The position numbers and the translations under genes were made by a program. 39,578 bases of DNA, from positions 1-39,578 of the forward strand of contig JAIRQX010000089.1 of the NCBI GenBank assembly GCA_031256375.1, in the 5' to 3' direction. Below the pieces are notes generated by a model. It searched no databases and was not told where the DNA came from. It was given only the letters and a program-made list of their open reading frames with translations. This document shows, one piece after another, positions 19,909 through 34,781 of this stretch. Numbering within the stretch: the first letter of the stretch is position 1; every line of letters begins with the position of its first letter. Source of the stretch: Deferribacteraceae bacterium (GTDB taxonomy: Bacteria; Chrysiogenota; Deferribacteres; Deferribacterales; JAISNW01).

Positions 19909-21042
19909 ATGCAGCCTGAAGAGATAATTGCCGAGCTTGACAGCGATAAAAAATTGATAAACAGCTTTGCTTCCGCCGTTAAAGAGGGTGAGGTAAATAA
20001 ACGGATTGAGGAGATAAACGCCTTATCTGTTTCCGATCCGAACTTTTGGAATAAAAAAGAATCCAGATCACTCTTGAAAGAGCAGTCAAATTATAAAAAG
20101 TTTATTGAAGAGTGGGGAAAACTTAAATCCGCGCTGGAAGATTGTTATGTGTTTCTGGAGTTATATAAAGAGGGGGATGAATCGCTTTTGCCTGAACTTG
20201 AGCAGAATGTGAAAACCCTTTCAAAAACAGCCGGGGATTTTGAACTTAAATTAATCCTCGGTGGCGATCACGATCTGAACAATGCTATCTTAACGATCCA
20301 TTCCGGCGCCGGCGGTACGGAATCCAACGACTGGGTAGCAATGATTATGCGTATGTACAGCCGTTATGCGGAGACAGAAGGTTTTAGCCTTGAAATACTT
20401 GATCAGCTTGAAGGCGAAGAGGCGGGAATAAAATCAATTACTTTTAATGTTATTGGTCCGTACAGTTACGGTTATTTAAAAGGGGAGACCGGAATACACA
20501 GACTTGTGAGAATATCCCCTTTTGACTCGCAAAACCGGAGACACACCTCATTTGCGTCTGTGTTTGTATTGCCTGAGATAGACGATGATCTGGAGATAGA
20601 GATAAACGAATCAGAGCTTCGCATTGATACATACCGCGCGGGAGGCGCCGGAGGACAGCATATCAATAGAACCGATTCCGCTGTGCGTCTGACCCATATC
20701 CCTACAGGGATAGTTGTAACGTGCCAGAGTGAGCGAAGCCAGCATAAGAATAAAGCGCACGCTATGAAGATACTGCGATCCAAACTGTATGAATATGAGA
20801 TGAGCAAGCGTAACAGCGAAAAAGAGAAGATAGAAGCTTCTAAGTCTGATATCGGATGGGGAAACCAGATTCGCTCGTATGTTATGCATCCGTATAAAAT
20901 GGTAAAAGATTTGCGTACACGGCATGAAACAGGAAACGTGGACGCAGTGATGGACGGAGAACTGGAACCGTTTATCAGATCGTATTTACTATATACTGCG
21001 GGGATTCTCAAAATTAACGAGGGTTCAGGCGACAATGAATAA
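19909..21042 (+). CDS. prfB: Peptide chain release factor 2 (uninterrupted frame)
   Basis: RF2 terminates translation at UGA and UAA. The 377 residues contain the stop-codon-reading tripeptide Ser-Pro-Phe (203-205) and the catalytic Gly-Gly-Gln (248-250) in AGGAGGQHINRTDSAVRLTH. SPF, as opposed to PxT, identifies RF2. Most bacteria split this gene with an in-frame UGA near codon 25 and a programmed +1 shift. Here the frame is continuous from ATG19909 and about 43 residues precede the conserved FWN, close to the 47 of E. coli, so nothing appears to be missing. Its last bases overlap the start of alr. Confidence 0.96.
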   Translation: MQPEEIIAELDSDKKLINSFASAVKEGEVNKRIEEINALSVSDPNFWNKKESRSLLKEQSNYKKFIEEWGKLKSALEDCYVFLELYKEGDESLLPELEQNVKTLSKTAGDFELKLILGGDHDLNNAILTIHSGAGGTESNDWVAMIMRMYSRYAETEGFSLEILDQLEGEEAGIKSITFNVIGPYSYGYLKGETGIHRLVRISPFDSQNRRHTSFASVFVLPEIDDDLEIEINESELRIDTYRAGGAGGQHINRTDSAVRLTHIPTGIVVTCQSERSQHKNKAHAMKILRSKLYEYEMSKRNSEKEKIEASKSDIGWGNQIRSYVMHPYKMVKDLRTRHETGNVDAVMDGELEPFIRSYLLYTAGILKINEGSGDNE

Positions 21043-22156
21043 CCTGGCTGAAGCCGCGGTTAAAAGTTTGAGACCTACTTATGCTCTGATAAATCTGAAA
21101 AACTTTGAACATAATATAACTTTAGCAAAAAAACTCTCCGGTTCGGATATAATTGCCATAGTTAAAGCTGACGCTTATGGTCACGGAGTCAAAACAACCG
21201 CCGGTCATGCCAGCCGCCACGGGGTGCATGATTTCGGCGTGGCTACCATATCTGAAGGGGTTATCTTGCGGGAATCTCTGGAAGACAACTCAGCGCGTAT
21301 TATTGTATTGGGATATGTGGATCCGAATTTTTACAGTTACGCTTATGATAACAAACTTCAGCTGACGCTCTTTGACAGCGGGTATGCCGATGCTTTTCAC
21401 AGTTACCTTAAAAATACAGGTCGTTCCGCCGGCGTTACTGTAAAGATTGATACAGGGATGGGGCGGCTGGGATTTAAACCTTCCCTGAATTTATATGAAT
21501 TTGCTGAAAGATATCCATGTTTTAAAGTAAATCATGTTATGAGCCATTTAGCCTCAAGCGATGATGATCCTGAATATACATCCCATCAGGAGGGTATTTT
21601 CAGGGAGTTTATATCAAAATACGCTTCGCTTAATTTCAATACAAGTCTTTATAACTCTTCCGCTATAGCCAAATATAAAAATTTATATAATTACACCCGC
21701 CCGGGGCTTTTTTTGTACGGGTATGTCAACGGCTCCGCAAATGTTCCCCTGAAACCGGTGATGAGTATATTTTCCAAAGTTATTCATGTCCATAAACTGG
21801 CGAAGGGGGAGTCGGTCAGCTACGGACGGCGTTTTTTTGCTCCCAATGATTGTGTGATTGGCGTTGTCCCTGTAGGTTATGCGGACGGGTATAACCGTCT
21901 GCTCACAAACAAAGGCGCTATGTACGTGGAAAATGTCCGTTGCCCTGTAGTGGGAACTGTTTGTATGGATATGACTATGATTGACATTTCAGCGATTGGG
22001 GAGAGCGCTTACGGAAAAGTTGTTGAGGTGCTTGGCAGCCGTATAAACGCGACAGAGATAGCATCATCTGTAAATACGATAGAATACGAAGTTATGTGCG
22101 GCATCTCAGACAGAATACCAAGAGTTTATGATTATTCTGACGGAAGCATAAAATGA
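21035..22156 (+). CDS. alr: Alanine racemase
   Basis: This PLP enzyme interconverts L- and D-alanine for peptidoglycan. The 373 residues form the N-terminal barrel with the cofactor lysine Lys44 in AIVKADAYGHG, and the C-terminal beta-domain bearing the catalytic Tyr263 in VSYGRRF. Other family motifs are KIDTGMGRLGF and PVVGTVCMDMTMIDIS. It overlaps prfB by eight bases and mlaE by four, so the cell-wall and envelope-lipid genes here are translationally coupled to RF2. Confidence 0.96.
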   Translation: MNNLAEAAVKSLRPTYALINLKNFEHNITLAKKLSGSDIIAIVKADAYGHGVKTTAGHASRHGVHDFGVATISEGVILRESLEDNSARIIVLGYVDPNFYSYAYDNKLQLTLFDSGYADAFHSYLKNTGRSAGVTVKIDTGMGRLGFKPSLNLYEFAERYPCFKVNHVMSHLASSDDDPEYTSHQEGIFREFISKYASLNFNTSLYNSSAIAKYKNLYNYTRPGLFLYGYVNGSANVPLKPVMSIFSKVIHVHKLAKGESVSYGRRFFAPNDCVIGVVPVGYADGYNRLLTNKGAMYVENVRCPVVGTVCMDMTMIDISAIGESAYGKVVEVLGSRINATEIASSVNTIEYEVMCGISDRIPRVYDYSDGSIK

Positions 22157-22920
22157 ACCCTTTTGGTTATCTGGGCAGTTTTGTACTTAATCTGCTGAAC
22201 ACTCTCGGCGGACTTTCCACTATGTTGTGGGATGCGCTTCGCTGGACTGTGCGCCCTCCGTTTCGTTTCAAACTTATTTTGGAACAGATGGAATCTATCG
22301 GTGTAAAATCGGTGCCGGTAGTAATATTTACGGGTATGTTTACAGGGATGGTTTTTGGTTATCAGTGTTATTTTGGTTTCCATTATTTCGGCGCGGAATA
22401 TATGACGGGAATGGTTGTCGCTTTGGCTATGGCAAGGGAATTAGGTCCCGTATTGAGCGCTATAATGGTAACCGCGCGATGCGGTTCCGCTATGACAGCG
22501 GAACTTGGTACTATGAGGGTAACGGAGCAGATAGACGCTCTCTACTCGCTTGCGGTGGAACCGTTGCAATACCTTATATCGCCAAGAATTATTGCAAGTG
22601 TGTTAATTATGCCTGTACTGAACCTTATAACGGTTACTTTTGGTATAGTAGGCGGATATGTAGTTGTGGTAAAATGGCTCGGGGTTAATTCCACGATCTT
22701 TTTGGAAAATATATCATATTATGTCGGTTTGGATGATTATCTCAACGGTACTGTAAAGGCTTTAGTTTTTGGTTTGATATTATCAGTTGTGGGATGTTAT
22801 AAAGGCTATTATGTCTCCGGGGGCGCGCTTGGAGTGGGACAAGCCACAACGCAATCGGTTGTGCTGTCGTGCATATTAATCCTGTTGTTTGATTATATAA
22901 TAACTGCGTTGTTATTTTAG
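22153..22920 (+). CDS. mlaE: MlaE-family ABC transporter permease
   Basis: This is the permease of the MCE-type phospholipid transporter in the inner membrane. The 255 residues carry five to six hydrophobic helices and the MlaE signatures VIFTGMFTGMVFGYQ, ALAMARELGPVLSAIMVTAR, GSAMTAELGTMRVTEQIDAL and the C-terminal GCYKGYYVSGGALGVGQAT. It works with MlaF (next gene, 10 bases on) and MlaD. No mlaB-like STAS gene follows. Its start overlaps the alr stop by four bases. Confidence 0.95.
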   Translation: MNPFGYLGSFVLNLLNTLGGLSTMLWDALRWTVRPPFRFKLILEQMESIGVKSVPVVIFTGMFTGMVFGYQCYFGFHYFGAEYMTGMVVALAMARELGPVLSAIMVTARCGSAMTAELGTMRVTEQIDALYSLAVEPLQYLISPRIIASVLIMPVLNLITVTFGIVGGYVVVVKWLGVNSTIFLENISYYVGLDDYLNGTVKALVFGLILSVVGCYKGYYVSGGALGVGQATTQSVVLSCILILLFDYIITALLF

Positions 22921-22930
22921 AGGCAGGTAT

Positions 22931-23677
22931 ATGATAGAGTTTGTACACACCAGCAAAAGTTTCGGAAATCATATTGTACACAGGGATATAAACCTAAAAA
23001 TCCCAAAAGGGAAGATCACGTTTATTATCGGACCTTCCGGCACAGGTAAAAGTGTGTTTATCAAACAGATCATAGGGCTGATGAAACCGGATTCAGGGCG
23101 GATAATGATTGACGGTGAAGATATGACCAGAATGGATGAAAAACGTCTTTTATCCATACGAAGCAAGTTAGGGTTGCTTTTTCAAAACGCGGCGCTGTTT
23201 GATTCCATGAATGTATTTGAAAATGTGGCTTTCCCCCTCATTGAACATACAAGCAAAACTTCGCGTGAAATCAGAGATATTGTACATAAAAAACTTTTGC
23301 AGGTAGGGCTTAAAGATATTGATCAAAAATACCCCTCGGAATTGTCCGGCGGGATGAGAAAACGTGTAGGATTAGCAAGGGCGCTGGCTTTGACCCCCGA
23401 ATTAATGCTTTACGATGAACCCACTACAGGGCTTGATCCGATAATGACTGACGTTGTAAACAACCTGATAGAATATACCCATAAAAGTACAAATATGACA
23501 TCAGTTGTTATTTCACATGATATAAAGTGTACATTGAAAACAGCGGACAATATTGCTATGATATACAATGGAGTAGTTGTCGCTCAAGGAACGCCGGAAT
23601 ATTTTCAGTCCACGGATAACCCGATTGTAAAGCAGTTTTTTACAGGTTCGGCGGACGGACCGATAAAAATTTACTAG
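22931..23677 (+). CDS. mlaF: MlaF-family ABC transporter ATP-binding protein
   Basis: This is the ATPase subunit that powers MlaE. The 248 residues show Walker A GPSGTGKS, Q-loop LLFQNAALFDS, ABC signature LSGGMRKRVGLARAL, Walker B LMLYDEPTTGLDP and the switch His in VISHD. The AALFDSMNVFENVAFPL stretch is typical of the MlaF branch. AGGCAGG precedes the ATG. After its stop comes a 118-base non-coding palindromic block before mlaD, unlike the tight spacing elsewhere in the run. Confidence 0.95.
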   Translation: MIEFVHTSKSFGNHIVHRDINLKIPKGKITFIIGPSGTGKSVFIKQIIGLMKPDSGRIMIDGEDMTRMDEKRLLSIRSKLGLLFQNAALFDSMNVFENVAFPLIEHTSKTSREIRDIVHKKLLQVGLKDIDQKYPSELSGGMRKRVGLARALALTPELMLYDEPTTGLDPIMTDVVNNLIEYTHKSTNMTSVVISHDIKCTLKTADNIAMIYNGVVVAQGTPEYFQSTDNPIVKQFFTGSADGPIKIY

Positions 23678-23795
23678 AGCAATTTACAGATGAGGCGGCG
23701 CTTTATACTCAGCGGGCGAAGCCTGCTTCCGTTACGCGCCTCCTAATAGCATTTCGATGACGAAATGCTAAAAAAATGCCAAAGGCAGGCAGTTA
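23678..23795 (+). repeat. Palindromic spacer between mlaF and mlaD
   Basis: This 118-base gene-free spacer contains a perfect 10-bp inverted repeat, TAGCATTTCG/CGAAATGCTA (23747-23756 and 23761-23770), around the loop ATGA. A second small hairpin, TGCC-AAA-GGCA (23777-23787), immediately precedes the mlaD start. The stem is followed by A rather than T residues, so it is not a standard terminator for + strand transcription. It could be a dispersed palindromic unit or an mRNA element controlling mlaD translation: the second hairpin overlaps the expected ribosome-binding position. Confidence 0.5.
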
Positions 23796-25235
23796 ATGAC
23801 ACGTGAAATAAAAGTCGGTATTTTTCTTGTCGGCGGTATCGCGCTGGCGCTTGTTTTATCAACAATATTCGGCAATCTGCGGCTTTTCAGTTCCGGCGGG
23901 ATGAAGGTTACTTTTTTTGTAGATGATTCATCCGGCATAACAATAAATTCCAAAGTTAAATATAGAGGAGTCACTGTAGGTGAAGTAGTTGATGTGGAGT
24001 TAGAGAACGGCAAAGTGGCTGTCAGGGTTTATATTAAGGATCAATATAAGATACCGGACAACGTTACGGTTATGATCTCACAGGACGGGCTGATTGGAGA
24101 GAAATATATTGATTTAAACACAAAATCACATTCGCCCGCTGCTGGCAATTTAGCTGACGGCGGTGAATACAGTAATTACAAATCCACTGTGACCATAGAT
24201 GATCTTGCTGAAAAAGTACAGGAAATAGCAAGTCAGGTAAATATTTTAGTTTCAAGTTTAAATAATGTCTTCTCATCTGAACAGGGGAAAGACGATATGT
24301 CAACTACACTCCACAATTTAAGGGTCAGCTCAGACAGTATTAGAAATATTTTAACTTCAAATCAGGATGAAATAAAGTCAGCTATAAGTAATCTTAACAA
24401 AATGAGCTACTCTATGAATAAATTCAGCAGTGACCTTGAAAGGATTATGTCAGCGGAGAATTCCAATATTCAGGCAAGTATTCAGAATCTTAAAGAGATA
24501 ACTCAGGAAAGTAAAACCCTCATAGACAACATCAATAAAATTACTCAGGAAGCGTACGACGGGAAAGGCACTATTGGTATGCTGTTGTCCGATAATGAAA
24601 CCAGAGATCAGATAAAAGACACTGTAAGCAGTCTTAAAAATATGCTGACGCGCGCGGATCAGTTAGTATTAAAATTGGAGGCGGGAATTGAGTATATGCC
24701 TTCCAATGATAACTACCATGGCTCGTTTATGGCTAAACTCCAGCCCAGCGATAAACGCTACTATATGTTTGGCGTGAGCAACAGGCTTTACAACACTTCA
24801 TCTTCATCTACCATATACACTGTTTCTGACTATCTGGATCCGGCGGGTAATAAGTATTATTCGGAAGAAAAAAACAAAACAGAGGAGAATGTTATCGCCT
24901 TTTCACTTCAGTACGCGCTGTTGTTCGGTAAGTATCTTGGGGTCAGGGGAGGGTTATTTGAAAACCAAATCGGGTTTGGTATAGACCTCTATCCGTTTGG
25001 TGCGGAGAATTTGGCGCTGACGTTTGAAACATCAGATTTTTTCAGGAGAGATGGCGGTATTTATTTAAAAGCAAATGCAAAATATTACTTCCTGAACAAC
25101 TTCTTTATTCAGGCGGGATTAGATGATTTCGGTTCAGGGCGCAGCAGTTTTTCATTCGGCGGGGGAATACATTTTATAGACGATGATCTGAAATATATTA
25201 TAGGTTCAATGCCTATTTCATCTGTTGCTAAATAG
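23796..25235 (+). CDS. mlaD: Long MlaD: MCE domain, helical linker and predicted C-terminal beta-barrel
   Basis: The 479 residues are far longer than E. coli MlaD (about 180). An N-terminal membrane anchor (about 7-25) leads to one MCE domain (about 36-115, with SGITINSKVKYRGVTVGEV and QDGLIGEKYIDL). A long helical region rich in Asn/Ser/Ile follows (about 130-295). From about residue 300 the sequence changes to alternating aromatic/polar beta-strands with Gly turns (IAFSLQYALLFGKYLGVRGG, GGIYLKANAKYYFLNNFF, SSFSFGGGIHFI), as in an outer-membrane barrel. This matches the trans-envelope MlaD described in Veillonella parvula, where one protein spans from inner to outer membrane. No MlaC or MlaA gene is present here. 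Confidence 0.88.
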   Translation: MTREIKVGIFLVGGIALALVLSTIFGNLRLFSSGGMKVTFFVDDSSGITINSKVKYRGVTVGEVVDVELENGKVAVRVYIKDQYKIPDNVTVMISQDGLIGEKYIDLNTKSHSPAAGNLADGGEYSNYKSTVTIDDLAEKVQEIASQVNILVSSLNNVFSSEQGKDDMSTTLHNLRVSSDSIRNILTSNQDEIKSAISNLNKMSYSMNKFSSDLERIMSAENSNIQASIQNLKEITQESKTLIDNINKITQEAYDGKGTIGMLLSDNETRDQIKDTVSSLKNMLTRADQLVLKLEAGIEYMPSNDNYHGSFMAKLQPSDKRYYMFGVSNRLYNTSSSSTIYTVSDYLDPAGNKYYSEEKNKTEENVIAFSLQYALLFGKYLGVRGGLFENQIGFGIDLYPFGAENLALTFETSDFFRRDGGIYLKANAKYYFLNNFFIQAGLDDFGSGRSSFSFGGGIHFIDDDLKYIIGSMPISSVAK

Positions 25236-27807: not shown

Positions 27808-27839
27808 GAAGTTGATGAAACATAGGAGTGGAAACTGTT

Positions 27840-30443
27840 ATGAATAAACAGCAATTAGCGTCAAAAATCTGGCAATCTGCCAACAAGATGCGTTCCAAAA
27901 TTGAGGCTAACGAGTATAAGGACTATATACTTGGTTTCATATTTTATAAATTCCTGTCGGATAAGGAGTTAAAGTTACTCAGAGCCGAGGGTATGACCAC
28001 CGAAGGGATTAAAAGTTTAACTGAAAGCGACACTGAGTCAGTCAGCTTTATCAAAAACAAGATAGGCTACTTTATGGCATACAATGACCTTTTCTCAACA
28101 TGGCTTTTAAAAAGTTCGGATTTTAATGTTTCTGATGTCCGTGATGCCCTGTCAGCGTTCAACCGCCACATAAACTCCGCCCATAAGAAAGTATTCACAG
28201 GGATTTTTAATACCCTGCAAACAGGGTTATCCAAACTTGGCGACACAGCCGCCTCGCAGACAAAGGCAATTAGCGACCTGTTAGGGCTTATAAAGGATAT
28301 TCCTATGGACGGCAAACAAGATTATGATGTGTTAGGCTTTGTCTATGAATATCTCATAAGCAACTTTGCAGCCAACGCAGGGAAAAAGGCGGGAGAGTTC
28401 TACACCCCGCACGAGGTTTCATTGCTTATGTCAGAAATAGTCGCTGAGCATTTGAAAAACTACAAAAAGATTAAGATATATGACCCAACGAGCGGTTCGG
28501 GTTCATTATTAATCAATATCGGACAATCGGCTGCAAAACATATTGACGATGAAAACAACATCAGGTATTACGCCCAAGAGTTAAAAGTTAATACATTTAA
28601 CCTTACCCGCATGAATCTTATTATGCGCGGTATTCTGCCCGATAACATAGCCATCAGGAACGGCGATACATTAGAGGATGACTGGCCGTATTTTGACGAA
28701 GATGACCCGCACGGCGCTTATGAACCGCTATATGTGGACGCTGTGGTATCAAATCCTCCATATTCCCAAGCATGGGAACCGGCATACAAAGATGCTGACC
28801 CGCGTTACTCCGGTTTTGGACTTGCCCCAAAAACGAAGGCTGATTTTGCGTTCCTTTTGCACGACCTTTACCACTTAAAGCCGGATGGTATTATGACAAT
28901 AGTTCTTCCGCACGGCGTCCTTTTCCGCGGCGATGCGGAGGGAGCGGACGGCGAGGGTAAAATCCGTAAGAACCTTTTTGAACAAGGTCATATTGACGCT
29001 ATTATCGGCTTGCCTCCTAATGTTTTCTTCGGGACAGGCATTGCAACAATTATCATGGTACTGAGGCAAAGACAGAAAAATGATGATGTGCTGTTTATTG
29101 ACGCCTCGAAAGGGTTTGTTAAAGTCGGTAAAAACAACCAACTCCGCGCTTCTGACATCAAAAAGATAGCGGACACAGTCGCTTCCCGCGCTGATATACA
29201 CAAGTTTTCCCGAAAAGTTAACCGTGATGAAATCCGTAAAAATGGTTATAACCTGAACATTCCCCGGTATGTTGATTCCTCTGACGCTCCTGTTTCATGG
29301 GATTTGTACGCAACAATGTTCGGCGGAATACCAAAACCGGAACTGACAGAACTGGACGCTTATTGGTCAGCTTTCCCAAAGCTCTGGACCAGCCTGTTCA
29401 AAGATGAGGGTACGCCGTTTGTATCGCTTGCAACGGATGATGTTAAACAGGCGATATTAAATAACGCAGATATTGAGGCGTACATAAAGCGATACACAAA
29501 CGTTTTTGACAGCTTTGAGCTTTATCTGAATAACGAACTTATTGGAAAGGCGCTTACGCTTAATATTTCACGTCAAGAAACCATTATCTGCGAAGATATT
29601 TTTTCCCGCTTACTTTCCGTGCCGCTGATTGATAGGTATAAGGCATACCAAGCGTTAAATAACGAATGGGTGAAAATCGCCATTGATCTTGAAATTATCC
29701 AGACAGAGGGTTTTGAGGCGGTAAAAGTCGTTGACCCAAACATGATTGTTAAGAAAAAGGGCGATACGGAATCCGAAGCGCAAGAGGGCTGGATTGGGAG
29801 GGTTATCCCATTTGAACTGGTGCAGGCTACTTTGCTCCGTGATGTAAGCGACGCCTTACGGCAAAAGGAAAACCGTATAACAGAAATAGCCGCCGGTTTA
29901 GAGGAAATAATTGAATCATTGTCTGAAGAGGAAAAAGAAGAGTATAAGGATGCGTTTAATGAAAAAGATGGCACGCTATCAAAAAATGGCATTCTTAATT
30001 ATTTGAAATCGGTACAGGATGGTGTTGAGTTTCCCGATGAATCAGTTGAAAACAAGCTGATTATCGCAAGAGATTTGTTTGCTGAGGAATCAAAGCTGAA
30101 AAAAGAGGTCAAAACCGAGGGAGCGCTTCTGAATAAGCTTACAAAAGAAACCATTGAAAATCTTACGGACGAACAAGCCTTGATGTTGCTTGATTTGAAA
30201 TGGGTTAAGCCTATAGTAGCCGCCATGAACGAATTGCCTCACGATGTAATTCGGGAGTTGGTGACAAAATTGACCGCTTTGGCGGAAAAATACGCCGTTA
30301 CATACACAGATGTCACGGACAAAATAAACAAGGCGAAAAATGAGGTTGTTACCCTTGTTGACAAGCTGCGGGGCAGTGAGTTTGATATGAAAGGACTTAG
30401 CGAATTTCAATCATTATTAAGGGGTGAAAAACTTGTTGAATGA
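27840..30443 (+). CDS. hsdM: Type I restriction-modification DNA methyltransferase subunit
   Basis: HsdM methylates adenine in the sequence chosen by HsdS. From ATG27840 the 867 residues contain an N-terminal HsdM helical domain (to about 130) and the N6-adenine methyltransferase core, with SAM motif YDPTSGSGSLL and catalytic NPPY (305-308). The C-terminal half (from about residue 470) is long, largely helical and charged, making the protein much larger than EcoKI HsdM (about 530). This matches the long HsdM class. AGGAG lies 11 bases before ATG27840, which I prefer to the GTG at 27828 that overlaps it. The gene overlaps hsdS. Confidence 0.95.
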   Translation: MNKQQLASKIWQSANKMRSKIEANEYKDYILGFIFYKFLSDKELKLLRAEGMTTEGIKSLTESDTESVSFIKNKIGYFMAYNDLFSTWLLKSSDFNVSDVRDALSAFNRHINSAHKKVFTGIFNTLQTGLSKLGDTAASQTKAISDLLGLIKDIPMDGKQDYDVLGFVYEYLISNFAANAGKKAGEFYTPHEVSLLMSEIVAEHLKNYKKIKIYDPTSGSGSLLINIGQSAAKHIDDENNIRYYAQELKVNTFNLTRMNLIMRGILPDNIAIRNGDTLEDDWPYFDEDDPHGAYEPLYVDAVVSNPPYSQAWEPAYKDADPRYSGFGLAPKTKADFAFLLHDLYHLKPDGIMTIVLPHGVLFRGDAEGADGEGKIRKNLFEQGHIDAIIGLPPNVFFGTGIATIIMVLRQRQKNDDVLFIDASKGFVKVGKNNQLRASDIKKIADTVASRADIHKFSRKVNRDEIRKNGYNLNIPRYVDSSDAPVSWDLYATMFGGIPKPELTELDAYWSAFPKLWTSLFKDEGTPFVSLATDDVKQAILNNADIEAYIKRYTNVFDSFELYLNNELIGKALTLNISRQETIICEDIFSRLLSVPLIDRYKAYQALNNEWVKIAIDLEIIQTEGFEAVKVVDPNMIVKKKGDTESEAQEGWIGRVIPFELVQATLLRDVSDALRQKENRITEIAAGLEEIIESLSEEEKEEYKDAFNEKDGTLSKNGILNYLKSVQDGVEFPDESVENKLIIARDLFAEESKLKKEVKTEGALLNKLTKETIENLTDEQALMLLDLKWVKPIVAAMNELPHDVIRELVTKLTALAEKYAVTYTDVTDKINKAKNEVVTLVDKLRGSEFDMKGLSEFQSLLRGEKLVE

Positions 30444-31653
30444 GAGAATGACCCCCGAAATAAGGTTTGATGGGTTTAAAGGGAACTGGAATATAGACAC
30501 ATTGGATATATTAACTGATGTGTATGATGGTACTCACCAAACCCCTCTATATGAAAACTCTGGTATCATGTTTCTGTCCGTTGAAAATATAAAAACTCTG
30601 ACATCAAAAAAGTATATTTCCGAAAAGGCGTTTTATAGTGATTTCAATGTATTTCCGCAAAAAGGCGATGTTTTGATGACACGCATTGGAGATATAGGTA
30701 CAGCAAATATAGTGGAATCCGACAAGCCTGTTGCCTTCTATGTTAGCCTTGCTTTGTTGAAAAAAAAATCACTTGACCCATATTTTTTAAAAGCGGTTAT
30801 TAGCTCGGAGGCTGTTTGGCGTGAACTTTGGCACAGGACATTGCATATTGCCTTTCCAAAAAAGATTAATGTGAATGAAATCAAGAGAGTTCCTGTTAAT
30901 TATCCAACCGACGAAAACGAGCAAGCCGCCATCGGCAATTTCTTCCGCACAATCGACGATATGATCACTCTAAAAAAACAACAGTATGGGCAGACGAAAA
31001 ACATCAAAAAAGCTATGCTTGAAAAGATGTTCCCAAAAAAGGGAGCTGATGCGCCTGAAATCCGGTTTGATGGGTTTACAGGAGCGTGGAAAGAACGAAT
31101 TATAGGAGATGTCGCTGTTTTTTCAAAAGGTAACGGTTATTCAAAAGCTGACTTAACAGACTGCGGTATACCCATTATTTTATACGGCAGATTATATACG
31201 AAATATGAAACTGTAATTGATGACGTTGACACCTATACCATTCTGAAGGCTAATTCTGTGATTAGTCTGGGTGGCGAAATTATTGTGCCGTCATCCGGTG
31301 AAACAGCCGAAGATATTGCGAGAGCATCAGTAGTTGTTAAATCAGGCGTTGTTCTTGGCGGTGATTTGAATATAGTTAGCGCTGATAAAACAATAGACCC
31401 CATTTTTTTGGCTCTAACCATATCAAACGGCGCTCCGCAAAGGGAGTTAAGCAAAAAAGCGCAAGGGAAATCGGTTGTACACATTCGTAATTCAGACTTG
31501 AAAGAGATCAGGTTACCTGTGCCCGATGTTAAAGAACAAACCGCCATTGGCAATTTCTTCCGCAGCTTAGACGCCCTTATCGAAGCCCAACTGGAGGAGC
31601 TAAAAAAGCTAAAAAACATCAAGAAAGCTTGTCTTTCTAAGATGTTTGTATAG
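30433..31653 (+). CDS. hsdS: Type I restriction-modification specificity subunit
   Basis: HsdS reads the two halves of the target site and bridges two HsdM subunits. There are two target-recognition domains (about 15-155 and 215-355), each introduced by a near-repeat (PEIRFDGFKGNW and PEIRFDGFTGAW) and followed by a helical spacer repeat (AIGNFFRTIDDMI...NIKKAMLEKMF and AIGNFFRSLDALI...NIKKACLSKMF). Both domains look intact and differ from each other, so an asymmetric bipartite site is expected. The start is uncertain: GTG30424 lies within the ribosome site AAGGGGTGA, so TTG30433 (or TTG30436) is more likely. The gene overlaps hsdM in another frame. Confidence 0.93.
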   Translation: MLNERMTPEIRFDGFKGNWNIDTLDILTDVYDGTHQTPLYENSGIMFLSVENIKTLTSKKYISEKAFYSDFNVFPQKGDVLMTRIGDIGTANIVESDKPVAFYVSLALLKKKSLDPYFLKAVISSEAVWRELWHRTLHIAFPKKINVNEIKRVPVNYPTDENEQAAIGNFFRTIDDMITLKKQQYGQTKNIKKAMLEKMFPKKGADAPEIRFDGFTGAWKERIIGDVAVFSKGNGYSKADLTDCGIPIILYGRLYTKYETVIDDVDTYTILKANSVISLGGEIIVPSSGETAEDIARASVVVKSGVVLGGDLNIVSADKTIDPIFLALTISNGAPQRELSKKAQGKSVVHIRNSDLKEIRLPVPDVKEQTAIGNFFRSLDALIEAQLEELKKLKNIKKACLSKMFV

Positions 31654-31664
31654 GAGGCAATATC

Positions 31665-34600
31665 TTGTTTAACCGTGAATCCGATTTTGAAAAAGCCCTT
31701 GTTGAGTTGCTGCTTGCTGAAAAAGGCTGGCGAGAAGTTATATACAACCCAACAGAGCAAGACTTAATCAATAATTGGGCGAAAATCCTGTATGAGAACA
31801 ACAAAGATATAGACAAGCTGAACTGCAAACCCCTCACAGACGGAGAGATGGCTCAGATTTTAGAGCAAATCAACAGCCTAAAAACACCTCTGCGATTAAA
31901 CGGTTTCATCAACGGCAAATCTGTGTCTATTGTCAGGGACAACCCTGACGATACCCTGCACTTCGGCAAGGAGGTCAGCCTCAAAATATATGACCGTATG
32001 GAGATAGCGGCAGGGAAAAGCAGCTATCAAATTGCACGGCAGCCTAGGTTTTTCGCAAGATCAGCTATTATAAGCGATCGCAGGGGGGATATAATGCTGC
32101 TCATTAACGGTATGCCGCTTTTTCATATCGAACTGAAAAAAAGCGGCGTACCCATAAGCCAAGCTACCAATCAGATAGAATTTTACGCCAAAAACGGCAT
32201 TTTCACAGGATTGTTCTCTTTGGTACAAATTTTTGTTGCCATGACCCCCGAAGATACAGTTTACTTCGCAAACCCCGGTCCGGAGAGGAGATTTAACCCC
32301 GATTTTTACTTTAACTGGGCAGATTTTAACAACGAACCAATACGGGATTGGAAAAATATCGCGTCACACCTAATCTCTATCCCAATGGCTCATCAGTTAA
32401 TCGGCTTTTACACTGTCGCAGACACGGCGGACGGCGTTTTAAAAGTCATGCGAAGCTACCAGTTTTACGCCGCTCACGCCATTACTGACAGAGTGGCAAA
32501 AATCAAGTGGGGCGGCAACAATTTGTTAGGCGGATATATATGGCATACGACAGGTTCAGGCAAAACCATGACCAGTTTTAAGTCTGCACAGCTTATCGCT
32601 AATTCCAAAGATGCCGATAAGGTTGTTTTCCTTATGGACAGAATAGAACTCGGCACACAATCGCTCAAAGAGTACCGCGCCTTTGCCGAAGAAAATGAAT
32701 CCGTCCAAGGAACAGAGAACTCCGGCGTTTTGTTATCCAAGCTAAAAAGTAACGATCTCGCAGATACACTAATCGTTACCTCTATCCAAAAGATGAGTCA
32801 GATAAAAGACGAGAACGGCGGTAAAAACGCAAAGGATATAGAGATCATCAGCAAAAAACGTATTGTCATTATCGTTGACGAGGCTCACCGCTCCACCTTC
32901 GGAGGTATGCTGTTGACTATTAAAGACACATTACCTGAAGCTGTCTTTTTTGGCTTTACAGGCACTCCGATACATGACGAAAATCGCAGGAAAGACAATA
33001 CAACATCGGACATTTTCGGCGACGAACTTCACCGATACAGCATTGCTGACGGGATAAGAGATAAAAACGTACTCGGTTTTGACCCTTATAAAGTTATGAC
33101 ATTCAAAGATAAAGATGTGCGTACCGCTGTGGCGTTGGACAAGGCAAAGGCTGTAGGTAACACAGCGGAGGAACAAATCAAAGATGTGTTTGCCGATCCG
33201 AAGAAAAAAAAGATTTATGATAAGTTTATGAACGAATTAGGCATGGCAGGCACTTGGGATGTAAATAACGAGTATATAAAGGGTATCGAGGATTTCATGC
33301 CTGATGAGCAGTATAACGAAGTACATTATAAAATGGTGGTTAAAGACATCCTTGAAAACTGGCTGACGCTTAGCCAAAACAACAAATTTCACGCTATTTT
33401 CGCCACTCACAGCATACCGCAAGCCATTGACTACTATAGGCTGATAAAATCAAAGAAACCGGACTTGAAAATAACGGCGCTTTTTGACCCAAACGTGGAT
33501 TTTGACGACAGCCCCGATAGTTCAAAAATTAAAGAAGACGGGCTTATAGAGATAATAACAGACTACAATCAAAGGTTTAATCAGACATTTGATATAGCCT
33601 GTCATGCCAGATTCAAGAAAGATATCGCGGCGCGACTGGCGCACAAAGACGCTTACAAAATGATTGACCGCACACCCGGCAAGCAGCTTGACCTACTGAT
33701 TGTGGTTGACCAAATGCTCACCGGCTTTGATTCAAAGTGGATAAATACGCTCTACATGGATAAGGTTAGGCGTTACGCTGATATTATTCAGGCATTTTCA
33801 AGAACAAACAGGCTAAACGGTTCTGACAAACCTTTCGGCACAATTCGTTACTACCGCAAACCCCATACAATGGAGCGGAATATTGCCGAAGCTGTAAAAC
33901 TGTATTCCGGCGACAAACCGTTTGACCTTTTTGTGAGCAAACTTGAAGGCAATATCAAGATGATGAATCTTAAATTTGAGGAAATAAGCATGGTTTTTTC
34001 CGGCGCAGGCGTTCCCGATTTTAGCAAACTGCCGTATGATAAAGAATCAAGGGGTAAATTTGCTAAACTGTTTAAGGAGTTGACCGCTCACTTGGAAGCC
34101 GCGACAATACAGGGATTCAAATGGGAGCAAACAGACTTTGAAATGGCTTTTGACGAGCGGACATATTTGATTTTGGCGTTAAGATATAAAGAGCTGTTCG
34201 GCGAGAGCGGTGGCGGTAATGGTGATTATGACGCCCCTTACGATTTGGACGGATACCTTACCGAAATAGACACAGGCAAGATTGATAATGATTATATGAA
34301 CTCCCGCTTTGAAAAATATTTAAAAACGCTTGGCTCATCTGATGAAAAAGTAAAAGTTGATGCTCTGAACGATTTGCATAATACGTTTTCTATGTTGACA
34401 CAAGAGGAGCAGCGTTATGCCGCTATCTTCCTCCATGATATCCAGCGCGGCGAAGCTGCTATTGAGGATGGTAAAACTCTAAGAGATTATATCACCGAGT
34501 ATCTTATGGACGAAAAGAACGCGCAAATTGAGAAGGTGTCAACGATATTCGGATTGGACAAAAATCTGTTGGTTGAACTGACAAAGCAACGACTGATAGA

Positions 34601-34781
34601 AGTTAATATCAATGAATTTGGGCGTTTCGATAAACTGATTTCCTCTGTTGACAGGGCAAAAGCAAAAGCCTACTTTGAAAAGATTGAAGGGCAGACGGTT
34701 TCCATTTTTGCAACGAGCAGTAAAACCTCGAGATTGCTGAGAGAATTTCTGTTAAAGGGCGGGTTTGACATAGAAGGTTGA
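31665..34781 (+). CDS. hsdR: Type I restriction endonuclease/translocase subunit
   Basis: HsdR pumps unmethylated DNA past the complex and cuts it. The 1038 residues contain an N-terminal PD-(D/E)xK-type nuclease with the ELK motif (156-158) after a conserved acidic strand. The SF2 helicase motor has Walker A TTGSGKT (295-301, Lys300) and the DEAH box (405-408), followed by AFFGFTGTPI-like motif III. Motifs V and VI appear in VVDQMLTGFDSKW and IIQAFSRTNRL, and a helical C-terminus binds the methylase. It starts at TTG31665 with AGGAGG (31652-31657) seven bases ahead and 11 bases after hsdS. All motor and nuclease motifs look intact, so the system is probably active. Confidence 0.95.
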   Translation: MFNRESDFEKALVELLLAEKGWREVIYNPTEQDLINNWAKILYENNKDIDKLNCKPLTDGEMAQILEQINSLKTPLRLNGFINGKSVSIVRDNPDDTLHFGKEVSLKIYDRMEIAAGKSSYQIARQPRFFARSAIISDRRGDIMLLINGMPLFHIELKKSGVPISQATNQIEFYAKNGIFTGLFSLVQIFVAMTPEDTVYFANPGPERRFNPDFYFNWADFNNEPIRDWKNIASHLISIPMAHQLIGFYTVADTADGVLKVMRSYQFYAAHAITDRVAKIKWGGNNLLGGYIWHTTGSGKTMTSFKSAQLIANSKDADKVVFLMDRIELGTQSLKEYRAFAEENESVQGTENSGVLLSKLKSNDLADTLIVTSIQKMSQIKDENGGKNAKDIEIISKKRIVIIVDEAHRSTFGGMLLTIKDTLPEAVFFGFTGTPIHDENRRKDNTTSDIFGDELHRYSIADGIRDKNVLGFDPYKVMTFKDKDVRTAVALDKAKAVGNTAEEQIKDVFADPKKKKIYDKFMNELGMAGTWDVNNEYIKGIEDFMPDEQYNEVHYKMVVKDILENWLTLSQNNKFHAIFATHSIPQAIDYYRLIKSKKPDLKITALFDPNVDFDDSPDSSKIKEDGLIEIITDYNQRFNQTFDIACHARFKKDIAARLAHKDAYKMIDRTPGKQLDLLIVVDQMLTGFDSKWINTLYMDKVRRYADIIQAFSRTNRLNGSDKPFGTIRYYRKPHTMERNIAEAVKLYSGDKPFDLFVSKLEGNIKMMNLKFEEISMVFSGAGVPDFSKLPYDKESRGKFAKLFKELTAHLEAATIQGFKWEQTDFEMAFDERTYLILALRYKELFGESGGGNGDYDAPYDLDGYLTEIDTGKIDNDYMNSRFEKYLKTLGSSDEKVKVDALNDLHNTFSMLTQEEQRYAAIFLHDIQRGEAAIEDGKTLRDYITEYLMDEKNAQIEKVSTIFGLDKNLLVELTKQRLIEVNINEFGRFDKLISSVDRAKAKAYFEKIEGQTVSIFATSSKTSRLLREFLLKGGFDIEG

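Follow-up and report, generated by a model that had tools for sequence, protein, structure and literature searches.

The mlaD gene at positions 23796-25235 very probably encodes the MlaD subunit of a minimal transenvelope MlaEFD lipid transporter of the Veillonella parvula type. The analysed stretch of DNA (39,578 nucleotides, hereafter the window) corresponds to contig 60 in a draft genome of 1.95 Mb with a completeness of 95.6%. The reading frame lies on the forward strand, starts with ATG, is open throughout and translates into 479 aa. Structure prediction together with sequence analysis confirmed that the predicted architecture, an anchor, one MCE domain, a heptad linker and a C-terminal barrel, is real in this reading frame.

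The genes mlaE and mlaF are positioned directly upstream of mlaD and form one operon with it in the order mlaE-mlaF-mlaD. mlaE (22153..22920, + strand) encodes an inner-membrane permease of 255 aa that matches the whole Pfam domain PF02405 (E=4.1e-78). mlaF (22931..23677, +) encodes an ATPase of 248 aa with PRK11831 MlaF as its best NCBIfam match, at 235 bits, which is under that model's strict equivalog cut-off of 441. The match ends at position 253 of the 270 in the model, which leaves MlaF with a shorter C-terminal stretch. No mlaA, mlaB or mlaC adjoins the operon and there is no STAS gene in it. The preliminary description had placed the three genes together without an adjacent mlaB or mlaC, and Pfam and NCBIfam agree with it.

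Upstream of mlaE lie prfB and then alr (21035-22156). The end of alr and the start of mlaE overlap by 4 bases and the gap between mlaE and mlaF is 10 bases long. The 118-base gap between mlaF and mlaD (23678..23795, +) contrasts with this near-gapless alr/mlaE/mlaF arrangement, and it is predicted to form two stable hairpins (fold z-score -3.18, with 0 of 200 shuffles as stable). One hairpin is a perfect 22-nt palindrome at 23748-23769 that is followed by an A run and is unique in the window. A known RNA family was ruled out, as there was no Rfam match, and a dispersed repeat was rejected within the window and the other retrieved loci, where the spacer was present once and absent, respectively. 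Downstream of mlaD we found a menaquinone-biosynthesis gene (Pfam VitK2_biosynth), then scpB and rluB; the names scpB, rluB and prfB come from reading the translations. The prfB gene (release factor 2, 19909-21042) starts with ATG and is one open frame of 377 aa, within which we saw no frameshift site with an internal stop like that of E. coli. The window also carries a type I restriction-modification set (27828-34781) after a queD-like gene. It consists of HsdM-like (27828-30443) and HsdS-like (30424-31653) proteins, recognized by reading, and HsdR (31665-34781), recognized by Pfam.

The draft genome (95.6% complete) gave no match to MlaA (PF04333) or MlaC (PF05494), for both of which the control genomes score. 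Their absence is likely, though not certain with a draft of this completeness. There is one MCE protein and one MlaE-family permease in the whole genome, and no second of either was found. Three STAS_2 proteins were considered as MlaB and rejected, because each lies beside PP2C/RsbU/SpoIIE-type phosphatase-like sequences (translations read by eye). Such a neighbourhood is the setting of anti-sigma antagonists, and MlaB is therefore probably absent from the genome. The genome-wide search for mlaA, mlaB and mlaC that was suggested along with the preliminary description thus favours its reading, with no MlaA, no MlaC and no MlaB-like protein among the three with a STAS_2 domain.

A BamA-type Omp85 protein, which could insert a barrel, is present (E=1.3e-58). 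LolA is present twice, so outer-membrane lipoproteins are possible, and LpxC is present, so lipid A is probably made. The loss of LPS as the reason for this odd system was rejected on account of LpxC. LptD had no Pfam match in this genome; since only 4 of the 40 genomes in our set score, we read this as insensitivity of the Pfam model and not as real loss. TamB (Pfam, E<=0.001) scored in 14 of the 40 genomes, none of them in the family of the window. Its absence is uncertain, because the protein is poorly conserved and the matches are weak even in the sister families. Given LolA, the lack of a TamB match in the family and of an LptD match in the genome, the envelope may be different from that of V. 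parvula.

The putative transmembrane anchor of MlaD at residues 5-27 (23808..23876, +), IKVGIFLVGGIALALVLSTIF, was read directly from the sequence. AlphaFold2 modelled a helix at residues 3-25 with low confidence, and K6, V7, G8 and F10 are invariant across 27 aligned relatives. Residues 37-108 (23904..24119, +) form a single MCE domain (Pfam MlaD, E=1.1e-18, 67.7 bits against a cut-off of 25.1); nothing else in full-length MlaD was above the Pfam cut-off. The PDB relatives of this domain are 7ch8, 6zy2 and 6xbd, and in Foldseek it reached a TM score by target of up to 0.86 against E. coli MlaD (5uw2, 5uw8). The full-length AlphaFold2 model, built from the 27-sequence alignment of relatives, was good for the MCE and C-terminal domains and poor for the linker. 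Its best Foldseek E-values were to the Mce1 tunnel proteins 8fed and 8fef, a local similarity only, over the N-terminal and helical part.

The linker spans residues 129-288 (24180..24659, +), about 160 residues, with predicted helices at 134-160, 162-188, 190-217, 225-254 and 268-285, although most of the linker was modelled at pLDDT below 50. Its hydrophobicity has a period of 3.50 residues, with a power of 51.6 compared with 21.7 ± 4.6 for shuffled sequences (0 of 300 shuffles were as high), and the peak pooled over the relatives was at 3.55. This test is independent of the structure model, and a period of 3.5 residues is that of the coiled-coil heptad. An N-terminal anchor with one MCE domain and a helical linker of roughly 160 residues had both been proposed at the outset, and both stand.

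Counted from residue 128, the distance from the MCE domain to the barrel is 161 residues in the window MlaD, 154 in its closest relative and 184 in a third member of the same family. It is 182-215 in most other Deferribacterales, 152 or 159 in most Bdellovibrionota and 119-120 in Deltaproteobacteria. Between some sister lineages (154/161, 197/204, 152/159/173) the steps are 7 or 14, and steps of 11 and 18 also occur; 7, 11 and 18 are coiled-coil repeat lengths. The difference between 184 and 161 does not fit them. It is possible, albeit doubtful, that the linker serves as a molecular ruler of the distance from one membrane to the other, with lengths stepping by coiled-coil repeats. If so, a narrower periplasm would be predicted in the family of the window, which has mostly shorter linkers (154, 161, 184) than most other Deferribacterales. 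By arithmetic, not by a model, a single unbroken helix of 161 residues would be about 24 nm long, which is close to the 24.2 nm measured for the periplasm of V. parvula (PMC10665443).

Residues 291-461 (24666..25178, +) are predicted by AlphaFold2 and Foldseek to form a ten-stranded outer-membrane barrel. When the C-terminal domain was modelled alone with 67 homologous domains, the mean pLDDT was 86.5 and the pTM 0.78. DSSP assigned twelve strands to this model, which we read as an antiparallel ten-stranded barrel plus two short strands that make a hairpin within the long loop joining strands 3 and 4; the count of ten is a reading of the model and involves no barrel-closure calculation. In Foldseek against the PDB the top matches of the domain were nearly all transmembrane barrels (OmpU, a KdgM-type porin, OprF, OmpX, Ail and designed barrels), with the highest TM score by target, 0.69, for the designed ten-stranded TMB10_163 (8uzl). 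The E-values were modest (best 2.8e-4), as can be expected of small barrels to which no PDB entry is related by sequence. The PDB sequence search with a barrel profile gave one chance-level match and no barrel relative. Pfam OMP_b-brl was matched by 6 of the 67 homologous domains (best E=1.1e-4), and the C-terminal domain of the window MlaD itself had no Pfam barrel match. Over the ten strands the mean contrast of the hydrophobic/polar alternation was 3.43, compared with 1.57 ± 0.35 in shuffled sequences, and 0 of 20,000 reached it; as the strand limits were taken from the AlphaFold model, this is a consistency check and not independent support. The last barrel strand, SFSFGGGIHFI, resembles the Bam recognition signal on reading of the sequence.

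The barrel had originally been placed at residues 300-479. The barrel itself holds up in a confident model, but its limits do not: 291-461 places it better and a helical tail follows. This conserved DDLK tail (residues 462-479, 25179..25232, +) has a short helix at 462-470 in both models, and the stretch IDDDLKYIIG begins at residue 461. The motif D-[DEN]-D-[LI]-[KR] (window 25176-25205) is common to most MlaD proteins of Deferribacterales and Bdellovibrionota and is missing in some relatives, such as those at loci L046, L028 and L030. A D-[DEN]-D-L-K tail could cap the periplasmic side of the barrel or bind Bam.

In the mechanism that we propose, MlaE and the MlaF ATPase would make up an inner-membrane engine, on which six MlaD chains would be seated via their MCE domains and the helices at their N-termini. 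The linkers, with their heptad pattern, would bundle into a tube across the periplasm, with its far end anchored in the outer membrane by the C-terminal barrels. Neither MlaC nor MlaA would be needed for lipids to travel from one membrane to the other along the hydrophobic bore. We infer the hexamer, the tube, the outer-membrane location, the phospholipid cargo and the transport toward the inner membrane, and for the direction, retrieval, we argue by analogy. A C-terminal beta domain that is soluble and periplasmic and docks on a separate outer-membrane partner would account for the missing Pfam barrel match of the window domain and for the lack of a barrel relative in the PDB sequence searches. 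We regard such a domain as highly improbable, since the model is confident and all-beta, nearly all its top structural matches are outer-membrane barrels, the alternation is strong, six homologous domains match OMP_b-brl and the last strand reads like a Bam signal. The preliminary description had named a soluble C-terminal domain as the outcome that would speak against it; what we observed was a domain that models confidently as a barrel of the transmembrane type. Ten strands make a barrel too narrow for lipid to pass, and it is thus more likely an anchor than a conduit. The barrel of V. parvula is likewise too narrow for a phospholipid, its authors doubt that lipid goes through it, and stability or anchoring was one option suggested for it (PMC10665443). 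We therefore lean toward a barrel that is only an anchor and holds the tube in place. Lipid would then enter and leave where the helical tube opens, on the inner side of the outer membrane, and the conserved helical tail could cap the barrel on its periplasmic side. This is a refinement of the main explanation, with which its confidence overlaps, and nothing here contradicts it.

The direction of transport could also be the opposite one, with the system exporting lipid to the outer membrane. No TamB was detected by Pfam (E<=0.001) in the family of the window, so the exporter usually proposed may be absent, and MlaEFD could then be the main lipid bridge. However, the absence of TamB is uncertain for so poorly conserved a protein, and TamB was the one AsmA-like protein that the search covered. 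Most of the evidence on MlaE-type transporters that have an MlaD points to import, and the V. parvula mutants behave as expected for retrograde transport (PMC10665443). We consider export unlikely and prefer retrieval.

Grasekamp et al. (2023) described the MlaEFD system of V. parvula, which lacks MlaA and MlaC and in which the TM segment and the MCE domain of MlaD are followed by about 150 helical residues and then by a ten-stranded barrel (PMC10665443). Upon fractionation, the barrel fragment was found in the outer membrane and the MCE fragment in the inner membrane (PMC10665443). Barrels were inferred in 103 sequences (about 10%) from many diderm phyla, and the arrangement was reported as widespread and argued to be ancestral (PMC10665443). 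The main text of that paper does not name Deferribacteres. Compared with this published description, the window system is of the V. parvula transenvelope minimal type by every sequence-level feature that we tested. Both have three genes only and no MlaA or MlaC, and their MlaD proteins share the order of a TM anchor, one MCE domain, a long helical region and a ten-stranded barrel, the latter predicted in our case. The comparison with V. parvula made in the preliminary description was therefore apt (PMC10665443). The two differ in the length of MlaD (419 aa in V. parvula, 479 aa in the window) and of its helical region (about 150 and about 160 residues). The V. parvula operon is followed by tolC and tamB, whereas the window operon lies after prfB-alr and before the menaquinone-biosynthesis gene and scpB. 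The window genome also differs in having LolA, and so possibly outer-membrane lipoproteins, and no detectable TamB.

The E. coli MlaFEDB/MlaC/MlaA system has homologues of the MlaE permease, of the MlaF ATPase and of the MlaD MCE domain. E. coli MlaD, in contrast, is 183 aa long, has no barrel and needs MlaB, MlaC and MlaA, and our searches found none of these three. With a long MlaD, no MlaA or MlaC and no likely MlaB, the window system falls outside the six-component E. coli type. E. coli PqiB and LetB/YebT are similar in being MCE proteins that span the periplasm as tubes, but each of their chains has several MCE domains and is not known to end in an outer-membrane barrel. The single MCE domain of the window MlaD sets it apart from this multi-MCE type. 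The Mce1 tunnel of Mycobacterium smegmatis (8fed, 8fef) also has an MCE domain followed by long helices that form a tube. Mce1 is made of six different subunits, each of which gives one strand to one small end barrel (PMC10665443). Unlike this shared end barrel, a complete barrel is predicted for each chain of the window MlaD.

A relative of MlaD is present in 39 of the 40 genomes of our set and in all 32 good-quality Deferribacterales genomes. Most relatives (G003-G039) also have a second, shorter MCE gene at a separate site, about 265-344 aa and mostly 300-344, which is too short for the same barrel. The genome of the window and its closest relative (G002) have only one MCE protein. A single-sequence search of the genome contig collection gave no match, and an alignment query returned 80 loci, most of which aligned through the barrel. 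The search pattern was drawn from the MCE domain, and it is thus biased toward this sequence family but not toward barrel-bearing proteins. The 80 loci include a Thermodesulfovibrionales bacterium, many Bacteriovoracaceae/Bdellovibrionales and some Deltaproteobacteria. In a single comparison, residues 10-470 of the window MlaD aligned with one Bacteriovoracaceae protein at 25% identity (E=8e-43). Distant matches (Nitrospirae, Desantisbacteria, Syntrophaceae, Omnitrophota) were few and covered the MCE domain and helical part only, to about residue 290. Judged from the alignments, the full predicted barrel-bearing architecture reaches Bdellovibrionota and other lineages.

Nearly all loci with sufficient upstream sequence have the genes in the order alr-mlaE-mlaF-mlaD, and the linkage to alr spans Deferribacterales, Bdellovibrionota, Thermodesulfovibrionales, Nitrospirae and Deltaproteobacteria. 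In a minority of the Bdellovibrionota loci alr was not found upstream. A peptidoglycan precursor gene is in this way linked to a lipid transporter across phyla. The main text of the V. parvula paper does not mention a racemase (PMC10665443).

The architecture was already described in 2023 in V. parvula and many other bacteria, and the window case is a further member. The details of the lineage, namely linker steps that are often of 7, the conserved D-[DEN]-D-L-K tail and the linkage to alr, are modest additions. What our analysis adds to the lineages with barrel-bearing MlaD is Deferribacterales, an order sampled densely, in which 32 of 32 good genomes have a relative. The same predicted protein is present in Bdellovibrionota and other lineages, mostly with an upstream alr in common. 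This spread agrees with the published view of the E. coli MlaC/MlaA shuttle as the derived exception. The sequence signature shared through the barrel and the tail offers a way to recognize this type from sequence, and the cultured members of Deferribacterales would be new organisms in which the bridge can be tested.
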